Positions 22,310 to 39,066 of a stretch of 64,000 bases of DNA are shown one piece after another. This DNA is from Agrobacterium rosae (GTDB lineage Bacteria; Pseudomonadota; Alphaproteobacteria; Rhizobiales; Rhizobiaceae), in NCBI RefSeq assembly GCF_002915175.1, contig NZ_NXEJ01000008.1, positions 124,001 to 188,000 of the forward strand, written 5' to 3'. The translations under genes were made by a program, and so were the position numbers. The first letter of the stretch is position 1; every line of letters starts with the position of its first letter. Below the pieces are notes generated by a model that did no database searches, was not told the origin of the DNA, and saw nothing but the letters and a program-made list of their open reading frames with translations.

Positions 22310-23344
22310 CTAATCGGCATTTTCATAATATTTGGTGAGATTTCCGCCCAGAAAGGAATTGGCGAGGGGCCGGTAAGACTTGGCGAGGCTCAGCGCCACG
22401 TCGTCATTCTGTAAAAAGAGATACGGCTCAAGCCAGGCGATTTGGAAGGCCTTCAACTTCTCTTTGCGGGTTTGGAAGCTTTGTTTTGTGCCCGCAATAT
22501 CCGCGACAATTGCCGGATTCGCCAAGGCGGAAATCGTGAAGTCCACGATCTTGTCGAGCTTGCGGTCACACACACCCAGGCTGTCTGGCCTCGAAGGGTA
22601 AAGAATACGTGCCGTCATCACGATCGGGGCAACGGCGTGGAGTTGATAATGGAGTGCCTTGTCCTTGCGTTTCATTTCCTCAGGTAAACTACCGTCAGGG
22701 CCTGCAGAGCATATGAGCAACTGATTTGTCTGCGCCCCCCAATCCAGAAGGTTTTGCCGCCCTGTTATTGCACCCACCTGCGCTGCTGCAAGACCAGCCC
22801 ATGCACGGTGATTGTTACGTGATGCCATGGGTGGGGCTTCTGTATCAAAATAGACGATCTGTTTTTCTGTAAGTGTGACCAACCAGTCGTGAATGGACTT
22901 CTCATCTGTGGCTGATGGTTTTTCGACAGTTAAAGCTCTGGCATAAGCAGCCGAGATACCTGCAATTCGCGAGGAGAGTGCCAAGTGAGCATTCATGGTT
23001 TCGGCCTGCATCAACGCACCAGCCTTTGCCCAACTCGCCACGCTGCTAAAAATGCATTTCGCCGCTGCACTGGCTTTCTTTTCGTCCAATGTTTTATTGG
23101 CGTCATCTGCCAAATTACGAATAAAGCCATCAATAGGTGCGAGTGACGTTTCGACTTCGGCGTTCAGTTTATCGTCGATCTCAGACCGCGATTTGTCAGC
23201 ATCCTTGTATCGCGAAGGCAAGTCGATATTGACAACGGGCTTGGCTACACTCGGGCAATCTTCTGTTGCAAATACATTGGTTTGGATTAAGCAGGGGCTT
23301 AGACCTATGGCGAGCGCCACACATTTAAGGACAAGTCCGGTCAT
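22310..23344 (-). CDS. algL: Alginate lyase (poly-mannuronate lyase, PL5)
   Basis: Periplasmic lyase that cleaves mannuronate-rich polymer by beta-elimination and clears stray chains during export. It has 344 residues from the ATG at 23344 (GAGGAA upstream; a TTG at 23359 is weaker) with a signal peptide ending near FATE. Catalytic residues of the A1-III family appear intact: N178-H179 in ASRNNHRAW, then R226 and Y233 spaced by seven in MKRKDKALHY, followed by a family-like HAVAPIVM stretch. Last gene of the alg operon, 11 bases after the Sel1 gene. An intact M-specific lyase fits a polymannuronate product. Confidence 0.9.
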   Translation of the reverse strand: MTGLVLKCVALAIGLSPCLIQTNVFATEDCPSVAKPVVNIDLPSRYKDADKSRSEIDDKLNAEVETSLAPIDGFIRNLADDANKTLDEKKASAAAKCIFSSVASWAKAGALMQAETMNAHLALSSRIAGISAAYARALTVEKPSATDEKSIHDWLVTLTEKQIVYFDTEAPPMASRNNHRAWAGLAAAQVGAITGRQNLLDWGAQTNQLLICSAGPDGSLPEEMKRKDKALHYQLHAVAPIVMTARILYPSRPDSLGVCDRKLDKIVDFTISALANPAIVADIAGTKQSFQTRKEKLKAFQIAWLEPYLFLQNDDVALSLAKSYRPLANSFLGGNLTKYYENAD

Positions 23345-23355
23345 ATTACTGTTCC

Positions 23356-26091
23356 TCAATTGATCTTCGCATTCATGCCAGCAAGCATTTCTGCCGCTTC
23401 GTCACTTCCAAGGTCTGATGCTTTGCGCAGCCAGAGACGGGCGTCATCGAGAGACACAGGCCCGCCAATTCCGTAGGCGTGATTTCGGGCCAATATCAGC
23501 ATTGCTGGCACATCATTGAAATTCGCTGCCGCTACGAGCAACATTTGCGCCTGTTTGACATCTTCTCCGGGCCTCGGTTCCGTCACAATAGCCTTGGCAT
23601 ATTCTCTCATACCACCGGGATCGCCGCTATCTGCCGCAGATTTGTAGATGGTATGAAGATCGAGCTTAGACAGCACCAGTGTGCGCACGGGTGCGTTCAT
23701 TTTCTTTATGCGCGCAACACGCTCGTAAAGCTGGTCAGGCGTTGCGTTTTTCACTGAGGATAAAACGACATTGGCGGCTTTGTCCTTCGAGTAACTTTGC
23801 TTTGCAGGGTCGGAGTAGTGGTTCAACAGAACCATTTCGGCTTTTACATCACCAAAGCGTACTGCATCTTCATAAAGAGCAAGGGCTTTTTCGGGAATAT
23901 CCTTGCCGTGTCCGCTTGAGGCAAAGTCGCCGAGAAGTCTGAAGCGCCAGCCGCGATGCTCAGTCAGTTCCTGCGCAACCATCAACCAGCTCTCAGCTTT
24001 TGTGCGGTCGATTGGAGCATAGGCCTTTGCTAAGGCAAAGCTATTTTCGAAGTTGCAGTCCATAACGGATGATGCCATCGACAGAAGTCGTTTCTGTTCA
24101 TCGACAAAACGCTCGGCTTCTGCCGCGAACATCAAAGCGGTCGCATCACCATTGGTCGAGATCAAGCTGGCATATTGTGTGTAAACATTAATTGTGCCGC
24201 GCAATGATGCCAAGGCGCGCATGGCGCGGCCATTGCCTTGCGCGCTTGCTTTTTCCAGGTAATTCAGTGCCAGCTTTCGCAGCGTCTCGTTTTCGGGAAG
24301 GTTAGCGATGACGGCATTGGCAGAGGCAACCTGAGTGGCCACCGATCCGGTTTCTGCCGCCGAAACATACAATTTCAGCGCTTCCTGTGTCATTGTATCG
24401 TTTGTTGCGGCGGCCAGCAGCAGCTTGGCGTGGCCCACGCCAGCATCACCATTGGCTGCAACTTTGGCTGTCCACTCCCTGACGGTAGCGTCATCGGCGC
24501 GGGTCGATTTGAGGTAATAGAGATAGGCAGCCAGTGCATCGGCTCGACCATAAAGCGCCTCCGACTGCAAGGCTGCGATTTCGACCGCATTGGGACGACG
24601 CACCAGCTTTACGATGCGCCAAAGTGGCCAGTTCGCCGAGGCATCTTCATCGTTCATCTGTTGCCACTTGGCAGCTTCCTGAAAATCAGGGCCACCCGGT
24701 CTGCGGCAAAGATAGGCGGCTTTTAGATCATTGACGGTGCCGGTCACACCAAAATTTTCAAGCACCGAACGAAGCAGGTTGGTGGCCTCATTGAACCGAC
24801 CAGGCTCATCAACGTGCCGCAGACGCAACTCGGCAAGGCTCTGCATGGACGTTACATCGCGCAGCTTTGCCCCCTGTTCAAACAGGACGGTTGCCTCCGC
24901 CTCGCCCGCCCACTGGCCGTTCTTTTCAAGGGTCAGATTTCCAAGTCTGGAAAATGCCCATGCGGGAGGCTGAGGGAGTTCCGAGAGCTTTCGTAACGTT
25001 TCCTCATAGGCCTGAACAGAGCGTAGATCATCGCTATCAGCTCTATAAAGGGCGGCTAAATGTGTCAGGCTGGCGCGATTGCCTTCATCTGCCGCCTTGA
25101 TGAAATATTGGCGGGCAAGCGCTTCGTCTTTTTGAACAATGGCCCCTGCATTGTAAATCTTGGCCAGTTCCACCATGGCCGGTATCATGCCGTGCTCAGC
25201 AGCCATTTTGAGATAACGCAGCAGAATGTCATTATCTTTTTCGATAGCTGTACTTTCCATATGGTAGCGGGCAACTTTCCAGGCAGCAGTTCCATCACCC
25301 AGATCCGCGGCAACCCTCAACCATGCCTCGGCGATGTGACGATCCGCAGCAACGACCTCGCCCTTCTCGAATTCCCGCGCGATACGGCCTATACGCTCGC
25401 AAATTCTGTCGTCCAGTTTTCCGACCATCGAGCCCAGCGCCATGGTGATGGCCAGGGACGGCTCCATGTCCCAGTCAGGCGTCGGCTTACCATCCAGTTG
25501 TGTCTTCGCCAGCGTCAGCAAGGCATCGGCATGCCCGTTCGATGCTGCCCGGACGAGTAATTTTTCGACTGCCTCCTGTCCGCCCTGATCCTTGACGATG
25601 CCACTCGTGATGAGGTCCGCCGCCATTTTCATTTCGCGCGCCGACATGCCGTTCCCAAGTGCGAAAAGCTTTTTTAAGAGGCCAGACTGTTCAAGTTCAG
25701 CGATTTTGCTAGCCCGCAGATAAAGCGAGATGCGTTCCGCCATAACATCATTGGCTGAAAGATCGCTCCGATCACCCAGACGCCCGATCATGCTTTCGAC
25801 AATCTGAAAATTACGCGTCGCATCCATATCGCGCAGGCGTTGGGCCTCACGCAGGATAATCCAGCCTTTGGTGTTCGGCAGCGTCTTCTGGTCCCAAGAT
25901 GTCCAGCGTTTCGAAATATCATCGTCGGGCGCGCGCTGAACACAGATATTTGCAGGCTCCACGACCGGCGGCAAGAATTCGATTTTCAGCGGCTCCGAAG
26001 GTGCAGCCCACGCACTCACGCCCGAAAAAGCCAACATGGCAGAGGAGAGCAGGAGTCCGATAGCGCCATAATTTCCGGGAGAAAAAGACAT
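23356..26091 (-). CDS. Long periplasmic Sel1/TPR-repeat protein, possible AlgK substitute
   Basis: Protein of 911 residues with a signal peptide (VSAWAAPSEP, type I cleavage; no lipobox Cys) and many Sel1-like repeats through most of its length. Examples are AASNGHADALLTLAKTQLDG, AAEHGMIPAMVELAKIYNAG, AADEGNRASLTHLAALYRAD and, at the end, ASDLGSDEAAEMLAGM. In Pseudomonas, AlgK is a lipoprotein of about 475 residues built from such repeats that scaffolds AlgX and the AlgE pore. This protein is about twice as long and lacks the lipid anchor. Strong RBS (GGAGG), 9 bases after algF. An AlgK-like role is inferred from fold and position. Confidence 0.85.
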   Translation of the reverse strand: MSFSPGNYGAIGLLLSSAMLAFSGVSAWAAPSEPLKIEFLPPVVEPANICVQRAPDDDISKRWTSWDQKTLPNTKGWIILREAQRLRDMDATRNFQIVESMIGRLGDRSDLSANDVMAERISLYLRASKIAELEQSGLLKKLFALGNGMSAREMKMAADLITSGIVKDQGGQEAVEKLLVRAASNGHADALLTLAKTQLDGKPTPDWDMEPSLAITMALGSMVGKLDDRICERIGRIAREFEKGEVVAADRHIAEAWLRVAADLGDGTAAWKVARYHMESTAIEKDNDILLRYLKMAAEHGMIPAMVELAKIYNAGAIVQKDEALARQYFIKAADEGNRASLTHLAALYRADSDDLRSVQAYEETLRKLSELPQPPAWAFSRLGNLTLEKNGQWAGEAEATVLFEQGAKLRDVTSMQSLAELRLRHVDEPGRFNEATNLLRSVLENFGVTGTVNDLKAAYLCRRPGGPDFQEAAKWQQMNDEDASANWPLWRIVKLVRRPNAVEIAALQSEALYGRADALAAYLYYLKSTRADDATVREWTAKVAANGDAGVGHAKLLLAAATNDTMTQEALKLYVSAAETGSVATQVASANAVIANLPENETLRKLALNYLEKASAQGNGRAMRALASLRGTINVYTQYASLISTNGDATALMFAAEAERFVDEQKRLLSMASSVMDCNFENSFALAKAYAPIDRTKAESWLMVAQELTEHRGWRFRLLGDFASSGHGKDIPEKALALYEDAVRFGDVKAEMVLLNHYSDPAKQSYSKDKAANVVLSSVKNATPDQLYERVARIKKMNAPVRTLVLSKLDLHTIYKSAADSGDPGGMREYAKAIVTEPRPGEDVKQAQMLLVAAANFNDVPAMLILARNHAYGIGGPVSLDDARLWLRKASDLGSDEAAEMLAGMNAKIN

Positions 26092-26100
26092 AAAAGCCTC

Positions 26101-26727
26101 CTATCGCTGCAAAAGGTTGTTTTCGAGTGCGACGGCGCTGTAGCGGCCGTTTGCGCCTGTAATGACAATTGAGTAGGCCGTTTTGCGCTTGAGATCGATC
26201 GTCTCGGTCGTTGCAACAGCGCTACCGTCCTTCTGTATCTCGAAGGCCAGTGACAACGGCGCTTTCAACGCCACATCCTTGCTTTCACCCGCTGCCACGC
26301 CTTTGAGTGCGACAGCTTTCGCTGCGGGTACAACTAGGTCAACACTGACCAGGTCGCTCAAATTGTAAAGATAAAGCTGCGCCTTGGCCGGATCGTTCTT
26401 GACCACGTCGCTAAAGACGCGCTCACCTTTCAGCCCCATTGTCATCGTGTAATATTTACCAGGCTCGACCGTCATCACCGTGCTTTGTCCGCCAGAGGAA
26501 ATCTCGACAGAGCCAGCGTTCACATTCACATAAGGCGAAACGCCCTGCGTCGGTGGCACCGGTTTTCCACCAATCGTCGCCGATTGCTGGTCCAAGCTCA
26601 CTACACGCACGAAAGAGGCCTTTGGATCAGCCGCCTTGCCGTATAGTCCGGCATCCTGTGCGAACCCGTGGGTAACTGCAAAACCTGCGACCAAGACGGC
26701 TATGGAAAACGTCGTTTTATGGTTCAT
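26101..26727 (-). CDS. algF: Alginate O-acetylation protein AlgF
   Basis: Periplasmic protein needed for O-acetylation of mannuronate residues. It has 208 residues with a signal peptide (VTHGFAQ) and the AlgF pattern: AGLYGKAADPKASFVRVVSLDQQSATIGGK, then YVNVNAGSVEISSGG, YYTMTMG and LYLYNLSDLVSVDLVVPAAK followed by a second Ig-like beta domain. Starts one base after the algX stop with AAAGGA upstream. It works with AlgI, AlgJ and AlgX, all encoded in this operon. Confidence 0.88.
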   Translation of the reverse strand: MNHKTTFSIAVLVAGFAVTHGFAQDAGLYGKAADPKASFVRVVSLDQQSATIGGKPVPPTQGVSPYVNVNAGSVEISSGGQSTVMTVEPGKYYTMTMGLKGERVFSDVVKNDPAKAQLYLYNLSDLVSVDLVVPAAKAVALKGVAAGESKDVALKAPLSLAFEIQKDGSAVATTETIDLKRKTAYSIVITGANGRYSAVALENNLLQR

Positions 26728-26728
26728 A

Positions 26729-28063
26729 TCAGTTGTCCTTTGTGCTGGCCGAGTGGCAAATGCTCACACCGGCGCTTTCGGGAGACAGGGTGTCGAACGT
26801 GATCTGAACGTTCTTGACGGATTTGGATCTGGCATCGAAGGGGAAGTAGTAGCGCCCGCTTGACGCCGCACGAGCAGGACGTGAAATCTGCGTTTCGATG
26901 ACGTCGCCGTCATCAAGCCCGACACGCAGCATTGCTGAACGGCTGTTCTCATTACCGGCATAGGCCAGAATGACGGAAGGACCTTCAAGGCTTTCAGGCC
27001 TTAGCGCTACATCGAGTACGTTTTCGCCAGATGTTGAAAATTCCGGCGGTACGCCGCTATCGCAAACTTTGACTGAAGCAGCGGCAAGCTCGCGCAAGGG
27101 CGCATCTCCGAATTTGCCGAGGTTATTGTAGATCGGGTTTTCCCAGATCAGAAAGCGTGGCCGCCTCTCTGCAAAATCTGCGGAGGTGATGTAAGCGGTG
27201 ATGGACCCGAACTGGTTTCCACCCGACACAGCATAATTGTTGACGGATGTTCCCAGTTGCTGAGAGAGGAAGCCTGCAAAATTGGCTGGAGCGAGATCGG
27301 AAAAGCTGGTGCCGACAAGCGCAACCCGTTCGCCCTCATCCGTATTGCCGAAAATATCGAGCTGCGCGCCACTTGAAGCAATGACTTCAGTCGTTTCGAA
27401 AGCCTCCATTTCGGCTGCTGGTAGGGACGACACACAAGACGCTTGAAGAAAGCGCCGCATAGTCGAAATGATCTGCTGGCGGCCGGCCGACTTGGTTTCA
27501 AAGGTTGCGGTCTGCAAGCCATCTGCGCCGGGCAAAGCCTTTATAGTGGCGGCCACTTCGCTTGCGGCCGCTTGTGCGCCCCATGCTGTCCAGTGAAAAT
27601 CTGCCTGCAAGAACGGCGGGTGCTTGGCGTCGTTGTTTTGCAGCGCTTTGAGAACATCAACAGTCACGACTCCATTACGGCGCAATTTCGCGAGCGTTTC
27701 ATCATAGGCAACCCTGGCGATATCGTAATTGAAGCCCAGTTCGTAGGTACGGTCTGGCAGATACTGTGGCATCGTCAGACTTTTGGTGGGGATAGGAACA
27801 TAGATCAGCGTGGTGCCATTGGCCTCAAGCGCCCGGGCCACTTCGGCAAGTTGCTTAGCGGTATGTTCACCCAGTTGATGCTGCATTCTGATATCGGCGA
27901 GAACGCGGAAAAAGTACCCGTCCTTACCTTCTACGGATGCAACGAGAGGGTCTTCTTCCAGGCCGGTGCAGCCGAAATCCGAGGCGATAACGGGCGACGA
28001 AGACAAAGCCATGCACATCAAAGAAATGATGAGCGGCGTATGGACGTTCAAAATGCTACTCAT
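26729..28063 (-). CDS. algX: Alginate O-acetyltransferase AlgX
   Basis: Periplasmic SGNH-like acetyltransferase that puts acetyl groups on the polymer and binds it. It has 444 residues with a signal peptide (SSPVIASDF). Catalytic residues: D155 and H157 in QADFHWTAWG, and nucleophile S253 in VGTSFSD. A C-terminal beta-rich region (about residues 340-444) corresponds to the AlgX carbohydrate-binding module, which separates it from AlgJ. Four cysteines near 32, 210, 334 and 436 mirror the two disulfides of Pseudomonas AlgX. The start overlaps the Sel1 gene by 8 bases. Confidence 0.88.
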   Translation of the reverse strand: MSSILNVHTPLIISLMCMALSSSPVIASDFGCTGLEEDPLVASVEGKDGYFFRVLADIRMQHQLGEHTAKQLAEVARALEANGTTLIYVPIPTKSLTMPQYLPDRTYELGFNYDIARVAYDETLAKLRRNGVVTVDVLKALQNNDAKHPPFLQADFHWTAWGAQAAASEVAATIKALPGADGLQTATFETKSAGRQQIISTMRRFLQASCVSSLPAAEMEAFETTEVIASSGAQLDIFGNTDEGERVALVGTSFSDLAPANFAGFLSQQLGTSVNNYAVSGGNQFGSITAYITSADFAERRPRFLIWENPIYNNLGKFGDAPLRELAAASVKVCDSGVPPEFSTSGENVLDVALRPESLEGPSVILAYAGNENSRSAMLRVGLDDGDVIETQISRPARAASSGRYYFPFDARSKSVKNVQITFDTLSPESAGVSICHSASTKDN

Positions 28064-28820
28064 TCATGTCTCCAGACTTCGGAGTTTCCATTGCCGCAGC
28101 GGAAGTAAGCTTGCGTCGAAGCGCACCAGCCACACTCTGGGTCTTCAGGTCGCTAGAGCGTTCGGCAACCATTAGATATGCTTCGATTTCACTGCGTTTG
28201 GAGATGGTGCCGTTGGTAGACATAAGGTTGATTGCTTCTTCCAGCGCCGCAGTGGCGTTTCCTCGGTGTGCAGCACTGACGCGGAACTCAGCATACTTAA
28301 CAGGGCTGTTTTCGAAGGGCGTACCTGACCGATACGCGGACATGAGCCCTTCGAACGCGGCCTCATCACCGCGTGCTGCATGCGCCCGCAAGGCAGTTTC
28401 TGCCGCACCGAGACGCTTCTGATTGGCCGGGTCCGGCTGTATTTTGCGCACAAGTGAAACAAGTGGCTTAATAGCTCCGGAACGACCGGCAGCGGCAGCC
28501 ATGGTGAAATAGTGCAAGGAATCCTTCTCAAGTTCAGGCTTTTGATACAGCTGTTTCGCAACCAGCAAGGCTGCAAGACTATCACCGCGATCCGCCAGAA
28601 CCTGAAGTTGCCGGTAGGAGATTCGCTTGTTTTTGACCATGCGCTTACGGGCATCACGCAATTCCTGTGTAGGAAGCTGGTCCGTACGGGTGATACCCGA
28701 GATAAAGCCGGCCTTCCGACGCGGTTGGGCATCGGCATCGGCCGCCGCTGCGACAATCACGGCAAATGTGAGAACTGCAAAGCCACGAATCTGAAAGAGT
28801 GGGGTATCAAATCTTTGCAT
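28056..28820 (-). CDS. Small periplasmic Sel1-like protein inside alg operon
   Basis: Protein of 254 residues with a signal peptide (AAAADADAQ, no lipobox) and Sel1-like helical repeats (LADRGDSLAALLVAKQLYQKPELEKDSLHYFTMAAAAGRSGAIKPL; HAARGDEAAFEGLMSAYRSG; AAHRGNATAALEEAINLM). Strong RBS GGAGG at its start, overlapping algJ by 14 bases. It has no counterpart in the Pseudomonas operon apart from the general AlgK fold. It may be a second scaffold bridging the acetylation proteins AlgJ and AlgX, between whose genes it sits; this is inference. Confidence 0.82.
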   Translation of the reverse strand: MQRFDTPLFQIRGFAVLTFAVIVAAAADADAQPRRKAGFISGITRTDQLPTQELRDARKRMVKNKRISYRQLQVLADRGDSLAALLVAKQLYQKPELEKDSLHYFTMAAAAGRSGAIKPLVSLVRKIQPDPANQKRLGAAETALRAHAARGDEAAFEGLMSAYRSGTPFENSPVKYAEFRVSAAHRGNATAALEEAINLMSTNGTISKRSEIEAYLMVAERSSDLKTQSVAGALRRKLTSAAAMETPKSGDMNE

Positions 28821-29925
28821 GGTCGACCTCCTTTGCTGCCGGCGCGTCCGCCCAGAGCTTGGTATCGGTCAGATACCGGACCGGAAATTCCCACAACACA
28901 GTTTGCGGAAGAGCGTCAGCGTTCTCCAGTGAGTCAAGATACTGGCGCATGGGTGCCACGGGCCCTTGGCCAACCAGCGCAGCATTGGCAACATCCAGGC
29001 CGCTTTGGAATGAGAGAAAGGATGCGAAGGACCAAAGTTCGTTCGCGCTATAGCTCGTGCCGACGAGTGCTACGGGAATATTTGTTGCATTGCCGAAGAT
29101 ATCATCTACCGGCTGATCACCAGATTTTTGCGCCAAATGATAGGGCGTTACGCGCTCACTTCCGAGACCAACAAGCGGTGCAAAAACACCGCCAGTAACG
29201 TATTTGACTAGATCACCCTCTACGCGTTCCTCGACGCCTTCCAAAATCTCGTAATGTCCGGGTTTCTCTCCGAGCACCTGCGCCGCAACAGCAGCGGCGA
29301 CTGCGTGTGCACCGGCGGGTGTCCAGTGTGTGTCGGTCTTCAAAAACACCTGACGATCCGTACGAGCAGACATCAACACGGAGCGGGTATCAACTGTTTC
29401 GATACCCCGCGCCTCAAGTTTTTCCCTAAATTTACCATAGAGTTTCTCGCTATAAGACGAAGCTCCGGGCTGTTCCAATTCATCGAAATAGACATCACTC
29501 TTGGCTGGTAATGGAACCATGGCAAGCTGGACGCCTTTTGCACCTAATGTTTTTGAGATCGTCTCAATCTGCTCCACGGAGACCATGAGGTAGGCGTCGA
29601 TATCGGCAGGCAAGCGGAACTCTTCATCCGTAAAGAGATAACCATCCTTTCCAGCGACGACGCCTCGTCGTCCCTCGCCCAAGAGAAAGTATCGGGCTGC
29701 GCCAATTATCTCTACCGCGAGTTGCCGATGGGGCAGGCCATCCCGATAAAGCTTCTCCAGATGCACCGTCACGCCACCATTCAAAACGGATGTTAGCGAC
29801 AGATCGTCCTGCCCATGTATCGGCTGCAAGCGCTCCGGCATGCCAAAGTTGGCGAAGGCCGCATAGCCAAACAGCGCAGCAGGTATCAGAAGTTGGATTG
29901 CAAGAGACGAACGAATAGCCGCCAT
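28807..29925 (-). CDS. algJ: Alginate O-acetyltransferase AlgJ
   Basis: Membrane-anchored periplasmic SGNH-like enzyme that relays acetyl groups from AlgI. It has 372 residues from the ATG at 29925 (GGAG about 8 bases upstream; an earlier frame-open start at 29970 lies inside algI). One N-terminal anchor spans residues 7-27. Catalytic residues: D198 and H200 in FLKTDTHWTPAG, and S291 in VGTSYSANELW. It lacks the C-terminal binding module of AlgX. Ten bases after algI. Confidence 0.88.
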   Translation of the reverse strand: MAAIRSSLAIQLLIPAALFGYAAFANFGMPERLQPIHGQDDLSLTSVLNGGVTVHLEKLYRDGLPHRQLAVEIIGAARYFLLGEGRRGVVAGKDGYLFTDEEFRLPADIDAYLMVSVEQIETISKTLGAKGVQLAMVPLPAKSDVYFDELEQPGASSYSEKLYGKFREKLEARGIETVDTRSVLMSARTDRQVFLKTDTHWTPAGAHAVAAAVAAQVLGEKPGHYEILEGVEERVEGDLVKYVTGGVFAPLVGLGSERVTPYHLAQKSGDQPVDDIFGNATNIPVALVGTSYSANELWSFASFLSFQSGLDVANAALVGQGPVAPMRQYLDSLENADALPQTVLWEFPVRYLTDTKLWADAPAAKEVDHAKI

Positions 29926-29935
29926 GGTCTGGCTC

Positions 29936-31369
29936 CTAAAACTGGAAATAAAGAAAGGGGGAATAGGCACTGTCGGCCAGTTTCAGAACCGCCACGACAC
30001 CCAGCAGAAGGATTGTAAGCGGAAGAGCAATTGAAGTCTGCATCACCATTGTTCCGTCGGAGCCAAAGGTAACGTCCTGCTCAGGCTGGAACATATCGCG
30101 CAGCCAGGGCTCGAATGCTGCGACAGTGGTCGCGACAAGAAGCATCAGCAGCGCTTCGCGGGTAAAGGCGAGAGACAGCGCAGAGGTGAGCGGCAAACCG
30201 TTGAAGCCGAGCATGCCGCTATAGATATTTGCCGCAATCGAAAGATTTTCTGCCCGGAAGACGACCCAGCCGATCAGAACCAGCAACAAGGTCAGGGGTA
30301 ACGAAGACAAATGACGTCCGGCCTGCTTATCCCAACCCGTTGCTCTCTCAATTGCCAGCCAACCACCGTGCCACGCACCCCAGATCACGAATGTCCAGTT
30401 TGCGCCGTGCCACAGACCGCCCAGCAACATGACGAGGAAGAGATTGATGTAGGTGCGCAAGGGCCCAAGTCGGCTGCCGCCGAGCGAGATATAAAGGTAG
30501 TCGCGAAGCCACGTCGAAAGGCTGATGTGCCAGCGCCGCCAGAATTCGGTAATGCTGCGGCTTGTATAGGGCATGTCGAAATTTTTAACGAACTGAAAGC
30601 CGATCATCAGCCCCAGACCGCAGGCCATGTTGCTATATCCTGAAAAATCGAAATACAGCTGGAGCATATAGGCGATCGCGCCGGTCCAGGATTCCACGAG
30701 GGTTGGTGTAGGGTTGGAGAAGACAGCATTCGCAAGCGGTGCGATGCTATCAGCGATCAGCACCTTTTTTGCGAGACCAATCGTGAAAAGCGCCGTTCCA
30801 TCCGCAAATTTCTGAAGGCTGTGCTCCCGATATTTGAACTGACCGGCAAGATCGCGAAACCGCAGGATCGGTCCCGCGACAAGCTGCGGAAACAGCGCCT
30901 TGAAAGCCGCAAGATCGATGAAATTACGGGTTGCGGGCGTATCGCGTCGGTAGACGTCGATGAGGTAGCTGACAGACTGAAATATATAAAAGGATATACC
31001 AATCGGCAGAATGAGCCGCCAGTGGATGCCCATCTCCTCAGGCGTCGTCCCACCGAGCGCTGCGATGCTATCCATGAAGAAGTTCAGATACTTGAATATT
31101 CCAAGGACAAGCAGGCAACCCGTGACGCCCGCCACCATCAGAGTTTTCGCCAATGGGCGACCAAGATTTTTCTCGATGAAAATCGCGAAAAAATAGACCC
31201 AAACCGTGGTGGCGAACAATAGGCCAAGAAAATCGACCCTCCACCATGCGTAAAAGACGTAAGAGCCGATCAAGATTGTCAGCGAGCGAAATCGCGGCGG
31301 GGTCAGATAATAGACGATGAGGAAGCAAGGGAGATACATGAATAGGAAAATTTCAGAAGAGAATACCAT
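29936..31369 (-). CDS. algI: Alginate O-acetylation membrane protein AlgI (MBOAT)
   Basis: Inner-membrane MBOAT acyltransferase of 477 residues that moves acetyl groups to the periplasmic side. Features: about ten spans, conserved PIGISFYIFQSVSYLIDVYR, FPQLVAGPILRF, YMLQLYFDFSGYSNMACGLGLMIG, FWRRWHISLSTWLRDYLYI, and the catalytic His in LLGGLWHGANWTF near residue 320. The ATG at 31369 has AGGTGG upstream and begins right after the algG stop; an in-frame GTG at 31378 is the alternative. Confidence 0.93.
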   Translation of the reverse strand: MVFSSEIFLFMYLPCFLIVYYLTPPRFRSLTILIGSYVFYAWWRVDFLGLLFATTVWVYFFAIFIEKNLGRPLAKTLMVAGVTGCLLVLGIFKYLNFFMDSIAALGGTTPEEMGIHWRLILPIGISFYIFQSVSYLIDVYRRDTPATRNFIDLAAFKALFPQLVAGPILRFRDLAGQFKYREHSLQKFADGTALFTIGLAKKVLIADSIAPLANAVFSNPTPTLVESWTGAIAYMLQLYFDFSGYSNMACGLGLMIGFQFVKNFDMPYTSRSITEFWRRWHISLSTWLRDYLYISLGGSRLGPLRTYINLFLVMLLGGLWHGANWTFVIWGAWHGGWLAIERATGWDKQAGRHLSSLPLTLLLVLIGWVVFRAENLSIAANIYSGMLGFNGLPLTSALSLAFTREALLMLLVATTVAAFEPWLRDMFQPEQDVTFGSDGTMVMQTSIALPLTILLLGVVAVLKLADSAYSPFLYFQF

Positions 31370-31370
31370 C

Positions 31371-32768
31371 TCAGCCACCTATCATTTTGTTACAGGCCGC
31401 AAGACCGAAAGCGGAGAAAGTTGCCAGTTGGACAACAGCAGGCTTCTGTTCGCCATGCACGATGAATTCGGAGTTTGGTCGAGCGTCATGGGCATCTAGA
31501 TATCTACCCGTAGCACCCGCCATTGCGCCCGCAAAAAGACGTGGCCACTGAGCCGAAAAATTGTTTGCCAAGAGCCGCAAATTACCGTGCCCGTCTGAGC
31601 GAATGCCGATAGCGTTGCGCGAAAAAACATTATCTTGAATATCTGTGACTGCTCCGGCCTGCTCCTCAAGCGAAATGCCATCGTGATTTTTGCGAATGGA
31701 ATTTCTCGAAATCTCGACACCAAGATTTCCCTCGGCACGGATGCCGCTGAGTTTGTTACTCTCGGTGAGATTATCGGATACCGTGCTGCAGCCACTTCCC
31801 TTGATGACGATGCCCGAAAGTTCGCTTTTTTCGACGTGATTATCTCGGACGTTGACAAGAACGGAGCCATCATCCACGAAAATGCCATGGCCTTGGCTAG
31901 ACGTGACGTCGTTGTATTGCAGTTTTACCTGCTGGCTGCGGCTGGTCACTCTAATCCCATGGCTTTTTGACGAGGCCATGCTGTTATGCAGCACAGTGAC
32001 ATTGGATGCCGATTGCACGACGATGCCTGAGGATCTCATGTCCGTAAGGCGGTTGTCTCTGATGACACTCCCGTTCGCCTTGATAAAACTGAGGCTGACA
32101 AGATTAGAGATCGTATTGTCCGTGATCTGGATATTGGGCGTGGACAGAGAAAAACCACGACCTAGAAAAGAGAGGCCCGAGGCTTCCGCAAATGACCCGA
32201 AACCAAGATTGCTGATATGGCTGCTTTTGATCGTCGCACCGCCTTCCGCAACGGTGAGGATAAAGGGCCGGAAACGATTGCCCGCCTGCGAGGACGCGCT
32301 AGCGTCTATCGAAGCGTCGGTGACGACCAGAGTTCCGGCGTTGATGATCAGGGCTGATTTCGTTCCATCAAGGAGCAGTTGCTCACCTTTTCCAATGCGA
32401 AGTTCCGCCCCTTTCCAGATCACCAGTGGTGCCGTGATCTGAAAAGCGTCACCTCGGTTTTGCAAGATGCCCTCCAGTTTTTTTCCGGCAGCGGCAGCGG
32501 CAAGCTCGGTTAGGCTGAACGTACCGCTTTCGATGACGATTGCCGTTGTGTCTGGATTGATATGCTTCTCAAGTTCGGCAAATAGCCCTTGGCTTGCGCC
32601 GACCGTGGCAATGGGGATGACCGTGCCGAATTTGGCCGTGCTGAGTCGTTGTTGCGAAGCCGCAGATATCGGCAAGGCGCTCCCCGCATCTATCGCCAGA
32701 GATTGTTGTGGCAAAGCCACCGTCAAACTGGCCGATAAAACCAATGCTTCGATCAGTATTTTACACAT
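31371..32768 (-). CDS. algG: AlgG-like beta-helix protein lacking the DPHD epimerase motif
   Basis: Periplasmic right-handed parallel beta-helix protein of 465 residues from the ATG at 32768, which overlaps the algA stop. The signal peptide ends near SLA-ID. Helix repeats run from about residue 135 to 405 (SHGIRVTSRSQQVKLQYNDV; LSGIVIKGSGCSTVSDN; HDGISLEEQAGAVTDIQDN). By repeat register, the turn that carries the catalytic DPHD in Pseudomonas AlgG reads VVQS at residues 250-253. DPHD occurs nowhere in the protein; a DAHD at 425-428 lies beyond the helix. It is probably not an active mannuronan C5-epimerase but may protect or guide the polymer. Confidence 0.82.
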   Translation of the reverse strand: MCKILIEALVLSASLTVALPQQSLAIDAGSALPISAASQQRLSTAKFGTVIPIATVGASQGLFAELEKHINPDTTAIVIESGTFSLTELAAAAAGKKLEGILQNRGDAFQITAPLVIWKGAELRIGKGEQLLLDGTKSALIINAGTLVVTDASIDASASSQAGNRFRPFILTVAEGGATIKSSHISNLGFGSFAEASGLSFLGRGFSLSTPNIQITDNTISNLVSLSFIKANGSVIRDNRLTDMRSSGIVVQSASNVTVLHNSMASSKSHGIRVTSRSQQVKLQYNDVTSSQGHGIFVDDGSVLVNVRDNHVEKSELSGIVIKGSGCSTVSDNLTESNKLSGIRAEGNLGVEISRNSIRKNHDGISLEEQAGAVTDIQDNVFSRNAIGIRSDGHGNLRLLANNFSAQWPRLFAGAMAGATGRYLDAHDARPNSEFIVHGEQKPAVVQLATFSAFGLAACNKMIGG

Positions 32769-34224
32769 AGTCTTCCACTCCAATCGCCTGCTGCAAAGCA
32801 CCCACCGAGATTGCGGGGAGCGGCAGTTGCTGAATGGACGGTTTGATCTCGCAGGTGATTTCGATGAGTTCAGCAGGCAAATCGGAATAATTGCTCACCA
32901 GCGCATAATCTGCACTGAGGAACATTTCCGCACTGCCTGCGTGAACCGGCATACCAATAGCGCCAGACTTCAGGTGAACGGTGCCACTTAAAACCGTGAC
33001 AATATGGCTTCGATTAGAGCCGCCCAAAATCCGCGCCTGCTTCCCAGGCGCAATCGTCAGCAGATTCATGGTGACACCATTTGCCGTGTGAATGGCTTTG
33101 AAGGTTCCCCATTCCATGAACTGGTTACGGTGGGTGCTAACTTCCGACCGCTTGGACAAGACCAGTTTTTCTACGATTTTCTTGACGTCCTGCGAGCGAT
33201 GTTTCGAGGCAACCAGAACTGCGTCATCGGTATCCACAACAATCACATCCGTCATACCGACGACAGCGATAAGCCGATCCCCGCCTCTTATCAGCGAATC
33301 CTGCGTGTCGTGCATCACGACATCACCGGAGATGACGTTGCCGTTTTCACATTTACGACCGATGGAATGCAGCGAGTTCCAGGCCCCAACATCGTCCCAC
33401 TTGATGTCGGCTGGCGCGAGCGCAATATCCTTTGTCCGCTCGAAAATCGCCTTTTCCGTCGGCAGGCTGAGAGCCTTTAGAAAACCCTTGGCCGAAAGCG
33501 CGATGCCACGGTTTCCCGACAGAGGTTGAGCATCGTTCAGGGATATCTGCACGGCGTCGTAAGTGGCCGGGTCATGCAAACGATATTCGCCGACGAGCTT
33601 GTCTGCCCGAAACATGCTGATGCCGGACGCCCAATAGGCCGAACCCGTCTCGAATAGTGAATGGGCGATGCTCAGTTCCGGCTTTTCGATAAAGCGTTCC
33701 ACGCGGTGAAGACCTGGGTAGTTATCGAAAACCCCGCCATCCATGATGTAACCGTAACCGGTTTCGGCAAATGTCGGGCGGATACCAAATGTGACGATCA
33801 AGCCATCGAGCGCTGCCTTGTGCATCGACTTTACAATGCCGTTGAGATCGCCCTGAATGACGTGATCCGAAGGAAGAACGACAATGACAGACTCCGGCTC
33901 CGCACCGGCCACATAGATGGATGCGGCCAGCACGGCGGGACCGGTGTTGCGTGCCATCGGCTCGGTGATGATATGCGCCTTGCACTGGATCTCGGCCAGT
34001 TGGCGGGATGCCGTCTCCAGATGGCGCTCGCCGACCGACACGATCGGCGTTGCGAACATTCCACCGCGGTGGCGCTGCACCGTCTGTTGAAAGAAGGACA
34101 TCGAGCCCTTGCCTTCAATCGATTGGAACTGTTTTGGCTGTTCTTCGCGTGACATCGGCCAAAGCCGGGTTCCAGAACCACCGCAAAGGATCAAGGGATA
34201 GATCTTGGAGGTTTTCATGGTCAT
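32761..34224 (-). CDS. algA: Mannose-1-phosphate guanylyltransferase with degenerate isomerase domain (AlgA-like)
   Basis: Makes GDP-mannose from mannose-1-phosphate and GTP. It has 487 residues. The nucleotidyltransferase domain is intact: GGSGTRLWPMSREEQPKQF at 15-33, LPSDHVI near 118 and FIEKP at 178-182. The C-terminal cupin, which in bifunctional AlgA isomerises fructose-6-phosphate to mannose-6-phosphate, aligns without gaps, but its QMHHHRAEH metal site reads LGGSNRSHI at about 400-408. All metal ligands are therefore replaced. The isomerase step must come from another gene. The start overlaps alg44 by 4 bases (ATGA). Confidence 0.88.
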   Translation of the reverse strand: MTMKTSKIYPLILCGGSGTRLWPMSREEQPKQFQSIEGKGSMSFFQQTVQRHRGGMFATPIVSVGERHLETASRQLAEIQCKAHIITEPMARNTGPAVLAASIYVAGAEPESVIVVLPSDHVIQGDLNGIVKSMHKAALDGLIVTFGIRPTFAETGYGYIMDGGVFDNYPGLHRVERFIEKPELSIAHSLFETGSAYWASGISMFRADKLVGEYRLHDPATYDAVQISLNDAQPLSGNRGIALSAKGFLKALSLPTEKAIFERTKDIALAPADIKWDDVGAWNSLHSIGRKCENGNVISGDVVMHDTQDSLIRGGDRLIAVVGMTDVIVVDTDDAVLVASKHRSQDVKKIVEKLVLSKRSEVSTHRNQFMEWGTFKAIHTANGVTMNLLTIAPGKQARILGGSNRSHIVTVLSGTVHLKSGAIGMPVHAGSAEMFLSADYALVSNYSDLPAELIEITCEIKPSIQQLPLPAISVGALQQAIGVEDYV

Positions 34225-35339
34225 GGTTTCCAGTTTCTGAGGGGTAAGATCAGACGGGCACCCGCATCGTTGATCCCGGCAAGCCAGGCGGGCGTTGTAT
34301 CGATGGATATGCGCACCGGCTTATTGGCGTTGGAGGGCCGGATGGCCGCCTCAGGCTTCAGAGTAACGACCATCATTGCGACGGGATCGACTTTTCCACC
34401 TTTGGATTTCACGTTGTCCAAACGGGCCGGCAGGACTGTTCCATCAGCCATTGTCATTGCAATTGCAGCTTCGTCAGACAGAGCATTGAGATCTGCAGAC
34501 GAGAAACGAGCTTCGACAACCAGGGTTTCGTCAGCGCCACTCAATTGCACCACGGGGTCCCCTGCCAGAACTGTCGCGCCCTGATCGACGTATTTTTCTC
34601 TCAAGCTGCAATCGCATGGCATCACCGCTGTCACCGATGCTCCAGACGAGCTTTCGATCGTGTAAAGCGGTTGATTGCTTGTCGGATTGTTGGCGAAGAA
34701 AGAGAGCTGACCAGATACCGTGGCTCGCAGCATTGGTCCGTTCCAGACGGCGACAGCCGGGCCTTCCACATTGTGCTGATAAACCCGACTGGACACCAGG
34801 GCCGATGCACCGAAAACGAAAAGCACCGACGCCGCAGTGGTGAGCGCGATGCCGAGCAGTTTGCTCAACAATCGACGGGACGTGATATGAGTGTTCGCGC
34901 CACCCGCTGTCTTCGGAAGCCTTGACTTGGCTTGCAGCATATCATGTAGGTTGACCACATCTCCTGCCAACCAAGCATTCAGGATATACCGAAGTTGGGG
35001 CATGTGAGGGCCTGCGGGCTCCGAGAACGTCAAAGCTAGCTGTCCTGTTTCGGAATTTGCCGTATCGACAATGACGGCGATGGGCAGTGAAAAGACAAAT
35101 GCGCCGAAGTCGAACCGAAACATCGCTAGACGCGTTGCTTGCGTCAGGCCTGGGGCTGCAAGTCCGCTGACCTTGGCTTGTGCCATGGATACGGAAATGC
35201 CGTCATAGCTTCGACCATCGATGACGACGCTGAAAGGAAGGTTGATGGAAGGGTGCTCGTTGCCGGAATGCAGAGCCGAAGCCGTTTCCGAAAACGTTTC
35301 TTTAGACCGCTCTTTGCCAGTGTACTCGATCGTGGTCAT
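34221..35339 (-). CDS. alg44: Alg44-like co-polymerase, degenerate PilZ domain
   Basis: Inner-membrane partner of the Alg8 polymerase. It has 372 residues: a cytoplasmic PilZ-like domain (about 20-130), one span (about 161-183) and a periplasmic HlyD-like segment (ASVTAVMPCDCSLREKYVDQGATVLAGDPVVQLSG, then VVEARFSSADLNAL). Length and architecture match Pseudomonas Alg44. The c-di-GMP motif RxxxR reads N27-E-H-P-S31, and DxSxxG reads SVSMAQ at 49-54, so ligand-binding residues seem lost. It sits 22 bases after alg8, with AAGGAA upstream. Confidence 0.85.
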   Translation of the reverse strand: MTTIEYTGKERSKETFSETASALHSGNEHPSINLPFSVVIDGRSYDGISVSMAQAKVSGLAAPGLTQATRLAMFRFDFGAFVFSLPIAVIVDTANSETGQLALTFSEPAGPHMPQLRYILNAWLAGDVVNLHDMLQAKSRLPKTAGGANTHITSRRLLSKLLGIALTTAASVLFVFGASALVSSRVYQHNVEGPAVAVWNGPMLRATVSGQLSFFANNPTSNQPLYTIESSSGASVTAVMPCDCSLREKYVDQGATVLAGDPVVQLSGADETLVVEARFSSADLNALSDEAAIAMTMADGTVLPARLDNVKSKGGKVDPVAMMVVTLKPEAAIRPSNANKPVRISIDTTPAWLAGINDAGARLILPLRNWKP

Positions 35340-35361
35340 GCGCGTTCCTTGTTGCTTGGGT

Positions 35362-36813
35362 TCAACTCAGTGCGATTGCGGTGAGCAGCAGCCAACCCGT
35401 GGCAACTGCGTGAAGATAGATTGAAGTCAGGGATTTCAGGTGTAGCGACAGTGGCTGTCGTACTTTCGTTTTGCTGGCGGACTGGCGCGTCCACTTCTGA
35501 CGATCGAGGCGGAACAGCACGAAGGTCTTCACCGCGGCGCCAACCAGTTGACCGAAATATAGCAGGAAAGGATAGCTGATCGGGAAGTTTGGCCGGAAAC
35601 TCATAATGACCAGACAATAGACGTAACGCGTGATCATCACCCAGGTGATATAGGCAGCCAGGATCAATGGATGAAAAAAGACTGCAGAAACCAAGACCGT
35701 TGCTGGACCGAGCAAAGTCGTCCACATCGATATGCGCTGGTCTAGCAGCGACCACCATGTGAATGCACCGATCTGGCCAGGGCCAAGGGCAAGCGCTCGC
35801 CCGTTGGTGCGCAGCATGTTGCCGAACCAGCGCACCATCAGAACGACAGCAGAATGGACGAAGCCTGGGTGTGGCTGTGTTTCCATCGACAGACTGCTGA
35901 CATCTGGAAGATAAAGCATCCGCCAACCGTTTTTCAGCAGCCAGAACCATGTCGACTTGTCATCACCGGTCAGAAACGTCACGCGTCCCAGGCGCCAGTG
36001 GTCCATGCTGTCGCGTTCCACCATGCGGATGAAATCGCTGTTGCAAGCAAGTGTCGCCCGGAAAACCGACATTCTGCCCGTCAGCGTCAAGATGCGTTTT
36101 GAAAGGCCCATTGACGACATCATCATCTGGCGCTGGGTGAAACGCAGGTTGAACCAATCGCGGAACAGACCTGGTTTGGATACCTCGCACCGTTCGTCCG
36201 TTGTCAGAGCACCGACTTTGTGATCGCAAAAGAACGGTGCCGACTTCTCAACAATATCGACGGGTGGACAGCTGTCTCCGTCCACGAAAATGACGACGTC
36301 CCTGTCACTTGGGCATTGACGGGCGATAATGCGCAGAGACGTTGCAAGAGCATCTCTTTTGCCAGTTCCAGCAATGCGGTCGATGATAAGGCGAACTTTT
36401 CCCTGCATGTTTGGGGTTAGTTCGAAGATGCTCCGGATCAAGCGTTCATCGGCGCCTTCAACCACGGAAGCCACGACAGTTGCTCCCCCTCTTGATGCCC
36501 CAGCAGCGGCAAAGATGGACCGGTAGACGGTGGTCGAGATTTCTGGCTCGATTTTGTAACTGGTGGCAAGAAAGAAAGCATGGGCGGGCACATGCTGTTG
36601 TCTATAAAGCCCTTCCACCACCGCCCGTCGACGCGGATGCACGAAGTGAACGAAGACATGCGCTCTAACGAAGTTGACAGCTCCCCAGCTATATCGCCAA
36701 GCGCCGATAACACCGATGGTCAACGCAAGACCGATATGTTTGGAGAGTTCCTCGAAAGGAATGGACAGCAAAAGAAGGCAAACTGTCGCCAAGTAGAGCG
36801 CATGTTTGATCAT
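35362..36813 (-). CDS. alg8: Alginate polymerase Alg8 (family 2 glycosyltransferase)
   Basis: Processive inner-membrane glycosyltransferase that joins mannuronate units from GDP-mannuronate and moves the chain to the periplasm. It has 483 residues: two N-terminal spans (about 6-20 and 27-48), a cytoplasmic GT-A domain with GTGKRDALA near 149 and the DxD site IFVDGDS at 176-181, then LTGRMSVFRA and TGDDKSTWFWLLKNGW (acceptor and base region), MVRWFGNMLR, and about four C-terminal spans. This architecture is diagnostic of Alg8 rather than a cellulose synthase. Starts 10 bases after algD (GAGG upstream). Confidence 0.92.
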   Translation of the reverse strand: MIKHALYLATVCLLLLSIPFEELSKHIGLALTIGVIGAWRYSWGAVNFVRAHVFVHFVHPRRRAVVEGLYRQQHVPAHAFFLATSYKIEPEISTTVYRSIFAAAGASRGGATVVASVVEGADERLIRSIFELTPNMQGKVRLIIDRIAGTGKRDALATSLRIIARQCPSDRDVVIFVDGDSCPPVDIVEKSAPFFCDHKVGALTTDERCEVSKPGLFRDWFNLRFTQRQMMMSSMGLSKRILTLTGRMSVFRATLACNSDFIRMVERDSMDHWRLGRVTFLTGDDKSTWFWLLKNGWRMLYLPDVSSLSMETQPHPGFVHSAVVLMVRWFGNMLRTNGRALALGPGQIGAFTWWSLLDQRISMWTTLLGPATVLVSAVFFHPLILAAYITWVMITRYVYCLVIMSFRPNFPISYPFLLYFGQLVGAAVKTFVLFRLDRQKWTRQSASKTKVRQPLSLHLKSLTSIYLHAVATGWLLLTAIALS

Positions 36814-36823
36814 CGTTACGACC

Positions 36824-38143
36824 TCACCAGCAAATGCCTTCGTACCGACCGTTCGAACGAAGGCCAGCCGTCAGACGAGCAAGATCGACGCAGGACTTTT
36901 CGGTAACGGCCTCGCTCAACGGATCGACCGTCTCATCGTAGCGATTGCCGATGAGGATGATGTCCGATGTGTCGATCAACTCGCCAATGCCTTCAACGAG
37001 GCGGTCCTGAAGATCGGGAATGGTATTGTTGCCGCGCCCCGACCCCGTCATTTGGTTGTCGTAGGCCTCACGAACGCTCGGATCATAAACCTTCAGGCCA
37101 TAACCCTTGGCAATGAGACGTGCGGCAAGATCTGCCAGTGGACTTTCCCGAAGGTCGTCCGTTCCCGCCTTGAAGCTGATACCGACGAGACCGACCGATT
37201 TTCCACCGGTATTTTCGACCATCGTCTCAGCGCGTTCGATCTGCCGCGCATTGGCGACAAGCACCGCATCCAGAAGTGGCGTCTTGGTTGCCTTGGCAGC
37301 TGCGAGATGGCGCAATGCTCGCACGTCTTTTGGAAGGCAGGATCCGCCAAAGGCGAAGCCTGGTCGCATGAAGTAAGGCGACATGCTTACCTTACCATCC
37401 GAGCAAAGGACACGCATGACTTGCTGACCATCAATACCCAGGGACTTGGCGATATTGCCGATTTCGTTGGCAAACGTAACCTTCGTCGCGCGCCAGGAAT
37501 TGCTGGTATATTTGATCATCTCTGCCGTTGCGATTGAGACAATGCTGAGCTGGCATGGCAGCCCGGAGTTGACTTCCTTCAGGATATCTAGAGTTGTTTC
37601 ATCCAGTGCCCCAAAGACGATCAGGCCAGGATTGTAATTGTCTTCGATTGCCGTGCTTTCGCGCAGAAATTCCGGGTAATAACCGACACCGAAGTCGACG
37701 CCGGCAACCAGTCCGGAAGCTTGTTCGAGAAGCGGTATGCAGACCGTTTCCATCGTTCCTGGAACGATCGTCGAGCGGATCACGACGGAATGGTAGCGCC
37801 CCTTTGCGGCAATTTCCTTGCCGATCTGAATGCAGGCTTGTTTGACATAGGCCAAGCCCACGCCGCCATCCGGATCGCTCGGGGTGCCAACGCAGACGAA
37901 TGACACGTCTGTCCCGGCGATAGCCTCTGCGATATCCTGCGACGCCCGGAGTTTCCCGAGTTCCACTGTTTTTCTGATCATGATGTCGAGGCCAGGCTCG
38001 ACGATTGGCGTTTCGCCGCGGTTGACCTTGTCGACTTTGTTAGGGTCGACATCCACCGCAACAACGTCATGCCCGTCACTGGCAAGACATGCAGCCGAAA
38101 CTACCCCCACATAACCGATGCCAAATATACTGATACGCGCCAT
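36824..38143 (-). CDS. algD: GDP-mannose 6-dehydrogenase AlgD
   Basis: Commits GDP-mannose to GDP-mannuronic acid by two NAD-dependent oxidations in the cytoplasm. It has 439 residues: Rossmann motif FGIGYVG at 7-13, PIVEPGLD, STIVPGT, EFLRESTAIED, the catalytic Cys269 in FAFGGSCLPKDVRAL, and GISFKAGTDDLRESPL. The C-terminal EGICW ending is also that of Pseudomonas AlgD and separates it from UDP-glucose dehydrogenases. First gene of the operon, with GGGAGCAA upstream. The 224-base leader between it and the LuxR gene is the likely operon promoter. Confidence 0.95.
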   Translation of the reverse strand: MARISIFGIGYVGVVSAACLASDGHDVVAVDVDPNKVDKVNRGETPIVEPGLDIMIRKTVELGKLRASQDIAEAIAGTDVSFVCVGTPSDPDGGVGLAYVKQACIQIGKEIAAKGRYHSVVIRSTIVPGTMETVCIPLLEQASGLVAGVDFGVGYYPEFLRESTAIEDNYNPGLIVFGALDETTLDILKEVNSGLPCQLSIVSIATAEMIKYTSNSWRATKVTFANEIGNIAKSLGIDGQQVMRVLCSDGKVSMSPYFMRPGFAFGGSCLPKDVRALRHLAAAKATKTPLLDAVLVANARQIERAETMVENTGGKSVGLVGISFKAGTDDLRESPLADLAARLIAKGYGLKVYDPSVREAYDNQMTGSGRGNNTIPDLQDRLVEGIGELIDTSDIILIGNRYDETVDPLSEAVTEKSCVDLARLTAGLRSNGRYEGICW

Positions 38144-38367: not shown

Positions 38368-39066
38368 TTAGTTCAATAGAACTGAAAACCAGCCGCTTCT
38401 ATAGCCATATTTTACTATTGCGACACGTGATCTCAAATCCAGTTTATCTGAAGCACGTGCTTTATATGTCTCAACGGTCTTACCACTGACCTTTAACTCA
38501 GACGCGATTTCTTTCGTACTGAAGCCAAAGGCAAACAACTTCAGTACCATTTCCTCACGCCGACTGAGCGGCCCGGATTCGGTATCGACTGATGCTAAGG
38601 AAGTGTTGTTAAGGGCAGCGTAGAAAGAGCGGATGTTGGGCTCACGAATTAGCCCAAATATGCGGCGGCTTATATAGTTGCCACCTCCGCCAATGATGCT
38701 GATTGCGCGAGAAAACTCCGTCGGTATGTCGGACACAAGCAGGATATTGTGTATGCCTGCTGTATAGATTTCCGGCACGGTCTCAACGAGATCGTCGTTT
38801 ACCACACAAATTACCGACGCGGTGCTGCGTGCACTGCGTAGGGCGCGGACAACGATGTGCCCATCAAATTCAGATAGATGGTCCCCTATGCCGACCACAA
38901 CAATGTCCGGCAACGTTCTGATAACGAATTCAGAGAGTTTTTCGAGTCCGCGTATCTCATCAACGAATATTGCCGTTCCACTAAGTGAAACGTTGTCGCG
39001 AAGTCTTGTTATAGTCTCTCTATTAGCTCCCACAGTCGCAACCCGGAGCCTGCTCTGATCAATCAT
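38368..39066 (-). CDS. LuxR-type regulator with atypical receiver domain
   Basis: Regulator of 232 residues upstream of the alg operon in the same direction. The C-terminal GerE/LuxR HTH is clear (about 165-222: LSRREEMVLKLFAFGFSTKEIASELKVSGKTVETYKARASDKL). The N-terminal 120 residues follow a response-regulator receiver pattern, but the phospho-acceptor position is Gly59 (DIVVVGIG in place of a DIVLLD-type strand end). The early acidic pair is VGAN and the conserved Lys is not evident. It probably works without phosphorylation. Codon use and base composition are AT-richer than its neighbours. Control of algD is inferred from position. Confidence 0.85.
   Translation of the reverse strand: MIDQSRLRVATVGANRETITRLRDNVSLSGTAIFVDEIRGLEKLSEFVIRTLPDIVVVGIGDHLSEFDGHIVVRALRSARSTASVICVVNDDLVETVPEIYTAGIHNILLVSDIPTEFSRAISIIGGGGNYISRRIFGLIREPNIRSFYAALNNTSLASVDTESGPLSRREEMVLKLFAFGFSTKEIASELKVSGKTVETYKARASDKLDLRSRVAIVKYGYRSGWFSVLLN

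Follow-up and report, generated by a model that had tools for sequence, protein, structure and literature searches.

The synthesis of alginate in Pseudomonas is a textbook case of control by cyclic diguanosine monophosphate (c-di-GMP) via Alg44, and the classical gene order in Pseudomonas and Azotobacter is algD-8-44-K-E-G-X-L-I-J-F-A. Departures from this layout have been described as "atypical" alginate operons, which lack algKE or modification genes and have a highly divergent alg44 (Bundalovic-Torma et al. 2020, PMC7112194, as far as excerpts of that paper go). Here, we analyzed a stretch of 64,000 nucleotides of Agrobacterium rosae DNA (positions 124,001 to 188,000 of contig NZ_NXEJ01000008.1; the window), which carries a related locus of twelve minus-strand open reading frames (ORFs; positions 22310-38143). 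All twelve are open in the window's ORF list and neighbors overlap or sit at most 22 bases apart, which bears out the twelve-gene operon of a preliminary description of this stretch. In the order of transcription, the genes are algD, alg8, alg44, algA, algG-like, algI, algJ, a gene for a small exported protein, algX, algF, a gene for a 911-amino-acid Sel1 protein, and algL.

Like the Pseudomonas/Azotobacter operon, the locus encodes AlgD, Alg8, an Alg44 of the same architecture, a protein with the AlgG fold, AlgX, AlgJ, AlgI, AlgF, AlgL, and the guanylyltransferase part of AlgA. It departs from that operon in gene order, lacks AlgK/AlgE as well as the c-di-GMP motif pair, the DPHD motif, and the phosphomannose isomerase (PMI) motif, and comes with two extra exported proteins and an upstream LuxR-type regulator. 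Because defining features were tested for and found missing, the locus is a variant of the alginate kind and not an alginate operon in the strict sense. A noncanonical layout, the loss of algKE, and the divergence of alg44 are shared with the atypical operons of PMC7112194; in the excerpts of that paper, whose S5 legend concerns deep-sea bacteria, there is no mention of the loss of c-di-GMP motifs, epimerase, or PMI, of an alphaproteobacterial clade, of a fixed order, or of Sel1 and LuxR genes. According to the same excerpts, AlgI/AlgJ/AlgX-type acetylation genes are also found in the acetylated cellulose system (Wss), from which the present locus would be set apart by its GDP-mannuronate-forming AlgD and Alg8-type synthase. 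Among the published titles and abstract beginnings listed, with most subscription journals and preprints outside the scope, none dealt with an alginate operon of these organisms.

Our data point to a β-1,4-mannuronate polymer that is O-acetylated, contains little or no guluronate, is made without direct c-di-GMP gating, leaves the cell by an exit other than AlgE, and is controlled at least partly at the level of transcription. We give this reading a probability of roughly 0.6, and acetylated polymannuronate would be the expected product. The preliminary description had likewise proposed an acetylated mannuronate system; the alginate-type identity, the GDP-mannuronate precursor, and the acetylation machinery stand, but it had been overlooked that the hallmarks of c-di-GMP binding, epimerase, and PMI are gone, which alters the polymer and the regulation to be expected.

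Alg44 and the control of the synthase

The comparison rests on 82 loci (clade A), i.e., the best 80 of 248 Alg8 matches and two further loci, some of them near-copies, and all counts are of sequences, not of independent events. Loci whose ORF could not be scored were left out, which kept 76 of the 82 for Alg44, 73 for AlgA, 74 for AlgG, and 79 for AlgD. In a second, rhizobial group of eight loci (clade B, L133-L140; about 48% identity in Alg8), 7/8 rows were kept for Alg44 and AlgG and 2/8 for AlgA. Ten reference alginate operons of Pseudomonadota were picked among 129 genomes with matches to PF13372, guided by the presence of alg genes or by the length of the match; the family is broad, and most of its matches are not established as AlgE.

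Fold comparison of the Alg44 N terminus gave Alg44 of P. aeruginosa as the best match, and the PilZ fold is retained. In the family searches, an HlyD-type match alone exceeds the cutoff and no PilZ match was found; by sequence, the full-length protein retrieved four Protein Data Bank (PDB) chains of an unrelated enzyme (E 0.28 to 1.4). The c-di-GMP pair RxxxR plus [D/N]xSxxG (within 60 residues) is missing from Alg44 of the window and from every clade A row (0/76), whereas it is present in 10/10 reference operons and 7/7 proteins of clade B, and the clade B row that was left out (L139) has both motifs in its start. These motifs were scored by pattern search, the second being out of register in the column alignment. 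As no clade member tested has the residue pair in its PilZ domain, direct binding of c-di-GMP to Alg44 probably does not gate the synthase.

Judged by its position, a LuxR-type regulator encoded upstream may have shifted control at least partly to transcription. Among the 61 acetylating-subtype loci that could be tested, 51 have a homolog immediately 5′ of algD and in the same orientation. The regulator's Pfam matches are confined to GerE and sigma-70 region 4; by eye, the N-terminal half resembles a (degenerate) receiver. The aspartate of "LLDP," found in most of the other regulators, is missing in the regulator of the window and its closest relatives, which therefore may not be phosphorylated.

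It is imaginable that c-di-GMP still acts indirectly, via this regulator or another receptor, and that the PilZ domain of Alg44 is purely structural (dimer formation, contact with Alg8). The retained PilZ fold would fit, and in P. aeruginosa c-di-GMP reportedly regulates alginate operon transcription (PMC9431422, in excerpt). The domain content of the regulator (GerE and sigma-70 region 4, with no receptor identified and no search aimed at one) does not favor this idea, which we hold to be a tenable minority view. It is compatible with the reading put forward above, which concerns direct gating through Alg44 only.

AlgG-like protein and precursor supply

The AlgG-like protein has the fold of AlgG and reaches 42 bits on the AlgG model (cutoff, 700). 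Its DPHD motif is gone in all clade A rows (0/74), compared to 10/10 reference operons with the motif. Furthermore, no D/E/H/K/R/Y column reaches 90% conservation among 75 clade A rows; clade B and the reference operons, 17 rows in all, have 20 of these columns without any variation. The β-helix, with the fold kept and the catalytic motif lost, may serve as a scaffold or polymer guard. For an ordinary alginate of mannuronate and guluronate, the AlgG-like protein would have to be active with a relocated site and Alg44 would have to sense c-di-GMP through diverged residues; with no conserved candidate column in AlgG and no motif pair in any of the 76 Alg44 rows, we consider this unlikely. Two cysteines of the AlgG-like protein (31371-32801), C338 and C470, are invariant in 75 clade A and 7 clade B rows and absent from the 10 reference AlgGs; they possibly form a disulfide.

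AlgA retains mannose-1-phosphate guanylyltransferase (GMP) motifs in 67/73 clade A rows (40/77 with a narrower GMP pattern) and has the PMI metal motif in none (0/73; 0/77 with another PMI pattern), and is thus probably not the bifunctional PMI-GMP enzyme. A GMP/PMI protein with an intact motif is encoded at another site in the genome, and this separate enzyme would account for the isomerization of mannose-6-phosphate.

AlgD reached 441.5 bits with GDP-mannose 6-dehydrogenase (1mfz) and 248.9 bits with the best UDP-glucose dehydrogenase, scores that rule out the latter identity, and its GGSCLPKD motif is present in 79/79 rows. Alg8 is 42 to 45% identical to Alg8 of the ten reference operons (AlgD, 46 to 49%; AlgI, 48 to 55%), carries the DGDS/T and GDDKS motifs in 82/82 clade A rows, and is placed beside the reference Alg8 proteins in the tree; it shares 94% identity with Alg8 of Agrobacterium rubi NBRC 13261 and 96% with that of an unclassified isolate, in keeping with an Agrobacterium-like genome. 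Matches of AlgD, Alg8, and Alg44 to a nonuronate system would have contradicted the preliminary description; those obtained are alginate-type, by the AlgD scores, the identity and tree position of Alg8, and the fold of Alg44. From sequence and fold comparison, the guanylyltransferase part of AlgA together with AlgD would supply GDP-mannuronate, and Alg8 with Alg44 would be the synthase pair. The merely 42 to 45% identity of Alg8, which has no PDB match at E up to 0.001, leaves some room for another uronic acid polymer made by AlgD-like and Alg8-like proteins of changed specificity. The preference of AlgD for GDP-mannose dehydrogenase by about 190 bits and the presence of a GDP-mannose-forming AlgA and a mannuronate lyase of polysaccharide lyase family 5 (PL5) in the operon make this improbable.

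Acetylation, export, and the organization of the clade

Sequence and fold comparison also suggests that AlgI, AlgJ, AlgX, and AlgF form the acetylation set. His 284 of AlgI is present in 73/73 rows and His 324 and His 337 in 72/73; the SGNH motifs of AlgX and AlgJ (D.H and GTS), scored with loose patterns in the 60 rows that also have an algI match, occur in 57 to 60 of them. AlgL matches the PL5 mannuronate lyases and would be one itself; in the window's copy, N, H, R, and Y are all in place, and 32/32 rows share the arginine and the tyrosine.

No AlgE-family protein (PF13372) turned up in any of the 21 genomes searched, that of the window among them. ORFs and family searches revealed neither algK nor algE in the operon, which is hence not "complete," as had been stated; AlgK was not sought genome-wide. 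Nor did the rest of the genome yield a PF13372 match that would point to an AlgE encoded at a distant site, although a barrel of another family may be present. The small exported protein (28056..28820) has no Pfam family at E up to 1 and, together with the 911-amino-acid Sel1 protein, holds a constant position in complete clade A loci. Of the two Sel1 proteins reported previously, the large one is confirmed and the small one is not. An identity as AlgK-like lipoproteins was considered too, but lipobox-like strings in 1/21 large and 1/76 small exported proteins do not support lipidation. The polymer may leave by an outer membrane route other than AlgE, with the Sel1-type proteins possibly doing part of the work of AlgK.

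The first eleven genes stand in the window's order in 53 of the 82 loci; 15 more are consistent with it but cut by contig or fetch ends, 11 have the identical order minus algI, algJ, and algF, and 3 deviate (L066, L074, and L151). In 23/23 extended regions, algL is the next gene after that for the large Sel1 protein and has the same orientation; in two of the ten reference operons (L208 and L209), algL comes after algF. What had been taken for a rearranged operon therefore has the order of its clade, and a local rearrangement of the Pseudomonas order is ruled out. Decay of the operon, to which the loss of several motifs might point, is scarcely credible with all twelve frames of the window open, the order kept in 53 loci, the motifs of AlgD and Alg8 in every row tested, and the SGNH motifs preserved as counted above.

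The eleven loci without algI/J/F (L051, L052, L064, L065, L068, L075, L078, L080, L081, L082, and L085) also lack the upstream regulator wherever testable, and their product is presumably a nonacetylated polymer. One strain of Oceaniglobus ichthyenteri has, on different contigs, one of them (L080) and a locus with algI/J/F and no algD and algA matches (L074).

The locus is carried by members of Rhizobium, Ciceribacter, Martelella, Devosia, and Roseibium, among others, and many of the best 80 loci bear names from the Rhodobacteraceae or Roseobacteraceae. In the Alg8 tree, in which long branches were flagged, 42 clade A rows fall on one side of a branch with a support of 99/100; clade B joins next, separate from the reference operons, and is not cleanly monophyletic (2 changes), although 78% of the bootstrap trees give it a single origin. 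Relatives at 35 to 40% identity (L141-L148 and L214-L216) served only as outer branches. The distribution is patchy: 3/39 genomes of the genus have the close form and 4/39 a relative at 48% identity, and a relative at ≥55% identity is found in 10/394 sampled genomes of the family and in 1/385 of a class-wide sample, namely, the window's own. In light of the family and genus counts, the statement that such a polymer is not usually credited to rhizobia was fair.

Clade B shares algD-alg8-alg44-algG and, in most loci, Sel1-type proteins with the locus described here. It differs in that DPHD and the c-di-GMP pair are both retained (7/7 scorable proteins), the AlgG ORFs have 1,202 to 1,289 amino acids, and an algI match is found in 0/8 loci. 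Several clade B loci have two or three further Sel1-type proteins, and algL is right behind algG in 4/8. In Rhizobium wuzhouense, a clade A operon (L037/L149) and a clade B operon (L140), the latter with its c-di-GMP and DPHD motifs intact, appear to share one genome.

The features of the locus are compiled in the table. Family searches back most gene names, Alg44, the AlgG-like protein, and the small "Sel1" protein being the three weak ones. The window had neither Rfam nor tRNA matches, and PLSDB contained no near-identical plasmid copy (four records with short matches only).

Table. Genes of the A. rosae locus and the upstream regulator, in window coordinates
Gene and product	Position	Strand	Support
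LuxR-type regulator gene	38368..39066	-	GerE 55.4 bits; 224 bp 5′ of algD; beyond the span given in the preliminary description
algD, GDP-mannose 6-dehydrogenase	36824..38143	-	441.5 bits to 1mfz; GGSCLPKD motif
alg8, glycosyltransferase family 2 (GT2) polymannuronate synthase subunit	35362..36813	-	Pfam GT2; identity to reference Alg8
alg44, co-polymerase	34221..35339	-	PilZ fold without c-di-GMP motif pair, transmembrane helix, HlyD-like periplasmic part
algA, mannose-1-phosphate guanylyltransferase with degenerate PMI-like cupin	32761..34224	-	NTP_transferase 144 bits; MannoseP_isomer 30.6
algG-like, right-handed β-helix without DPHD motif	31371..32801	-	
algI, MBOAT acyl transfer protein	29936..31378	-	MBOAT 98.7 bits
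algJ, SGNH O-acetyltransferase-like	28807..29970	-	PF16822 213 bits; D.H and GTS motifs
Small exported protein	28056..28820	-	Pfam negative; conserved in the clade; Sel1-like in the preliminary description
algX, SGNH O-acetyltransferase	26729..28063	-	PF16822 187 bits; D.H and GTS motifs
algF, acetylation accessory protein	26101..26727	-	PF11182 35.3 bits (cutoff, 34.4)
911-amino-acid Sel1-repeat exported protein, possible AlgK stand-in	23356..26091	-	Sel1 53.7 bits
algL, PL5 mannuronate lyase	22310..23359	-	PF05426 98.5 bits

Limits and meaning of the proposed pathway

Several observations weigh against the acetylated, c-di-GMP-independent polymannuronate proposed here. Loss of a motif is no proof of lost ligand binding or catalysis, since other residues could serve; any RxxxR is found in the first 70 residues of Alg44 in 14/76 clade A rows (2/76 in a tighter form) and [DN].S..G in the first 130 residues in 6/76. 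The search for the regulator, whose candidate target, the alg operon, is suggested by position, was negative in 10 of the 61 testable acetylating-subtype loci and in all of the 11 testable among 14 loci labeled as lacking algI/J/F, two of which were labeled by guess (L066, which has an algF match, and L083, which is cut short). The PMI motif is absent also from both scorable AlgA proteins of clade B (n = 2), and its loss may therefore predate clade A. Clade B seemingly has no AlgE either (1/8 genomes has a match, which is weak, partial, and on a different contig), so the absence of AlgE is not specific to the clade. Finally, the histidine of AlgL that stabilizes the reaction intermediate is kept in the window, two close relatives, and one Ciceribacter, whereas it is a leucine in 18 of the 21 best clade relatives compared (L098-L118), and lyase activity in the wider clade is therefore uncertain. 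The H202A variant of P. aeruginosa AlgL has no detectable in vitro activity yet supports growth (PMC8829089, in excerpt), and the leucine form is therefore not necessarily useless.

Extended to the alphaproteobacterial clade as a whole, i.e., acetylated polymannuronate, a synthase uncoupled from direct c-di-GMP control, a dead scaffold AlgG, a non-AlgE exit, and, in some species such as R. wuzhouense, a second system with intact motifs, our model is tentative and may about as well fail as hold, with the balance slightly toward failure.

An Alg44 that keeps the fold minus the ligand motif offers a way to ask what PilZ does beyond c-di-GMP and how Alg8 is switched, and the clade lets one ask whether AlgG is needed as a noncatalytic scaffold. 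It also raises the question of how an alginate-type polymer exits a cell in which AlgE is not found. The two operons of R. wuzhouense would be a natural side-by-side comparison of clades A and B, and if the polymer is truly acetylated polymannuronate, these bacteria would be a natural source of defined material.
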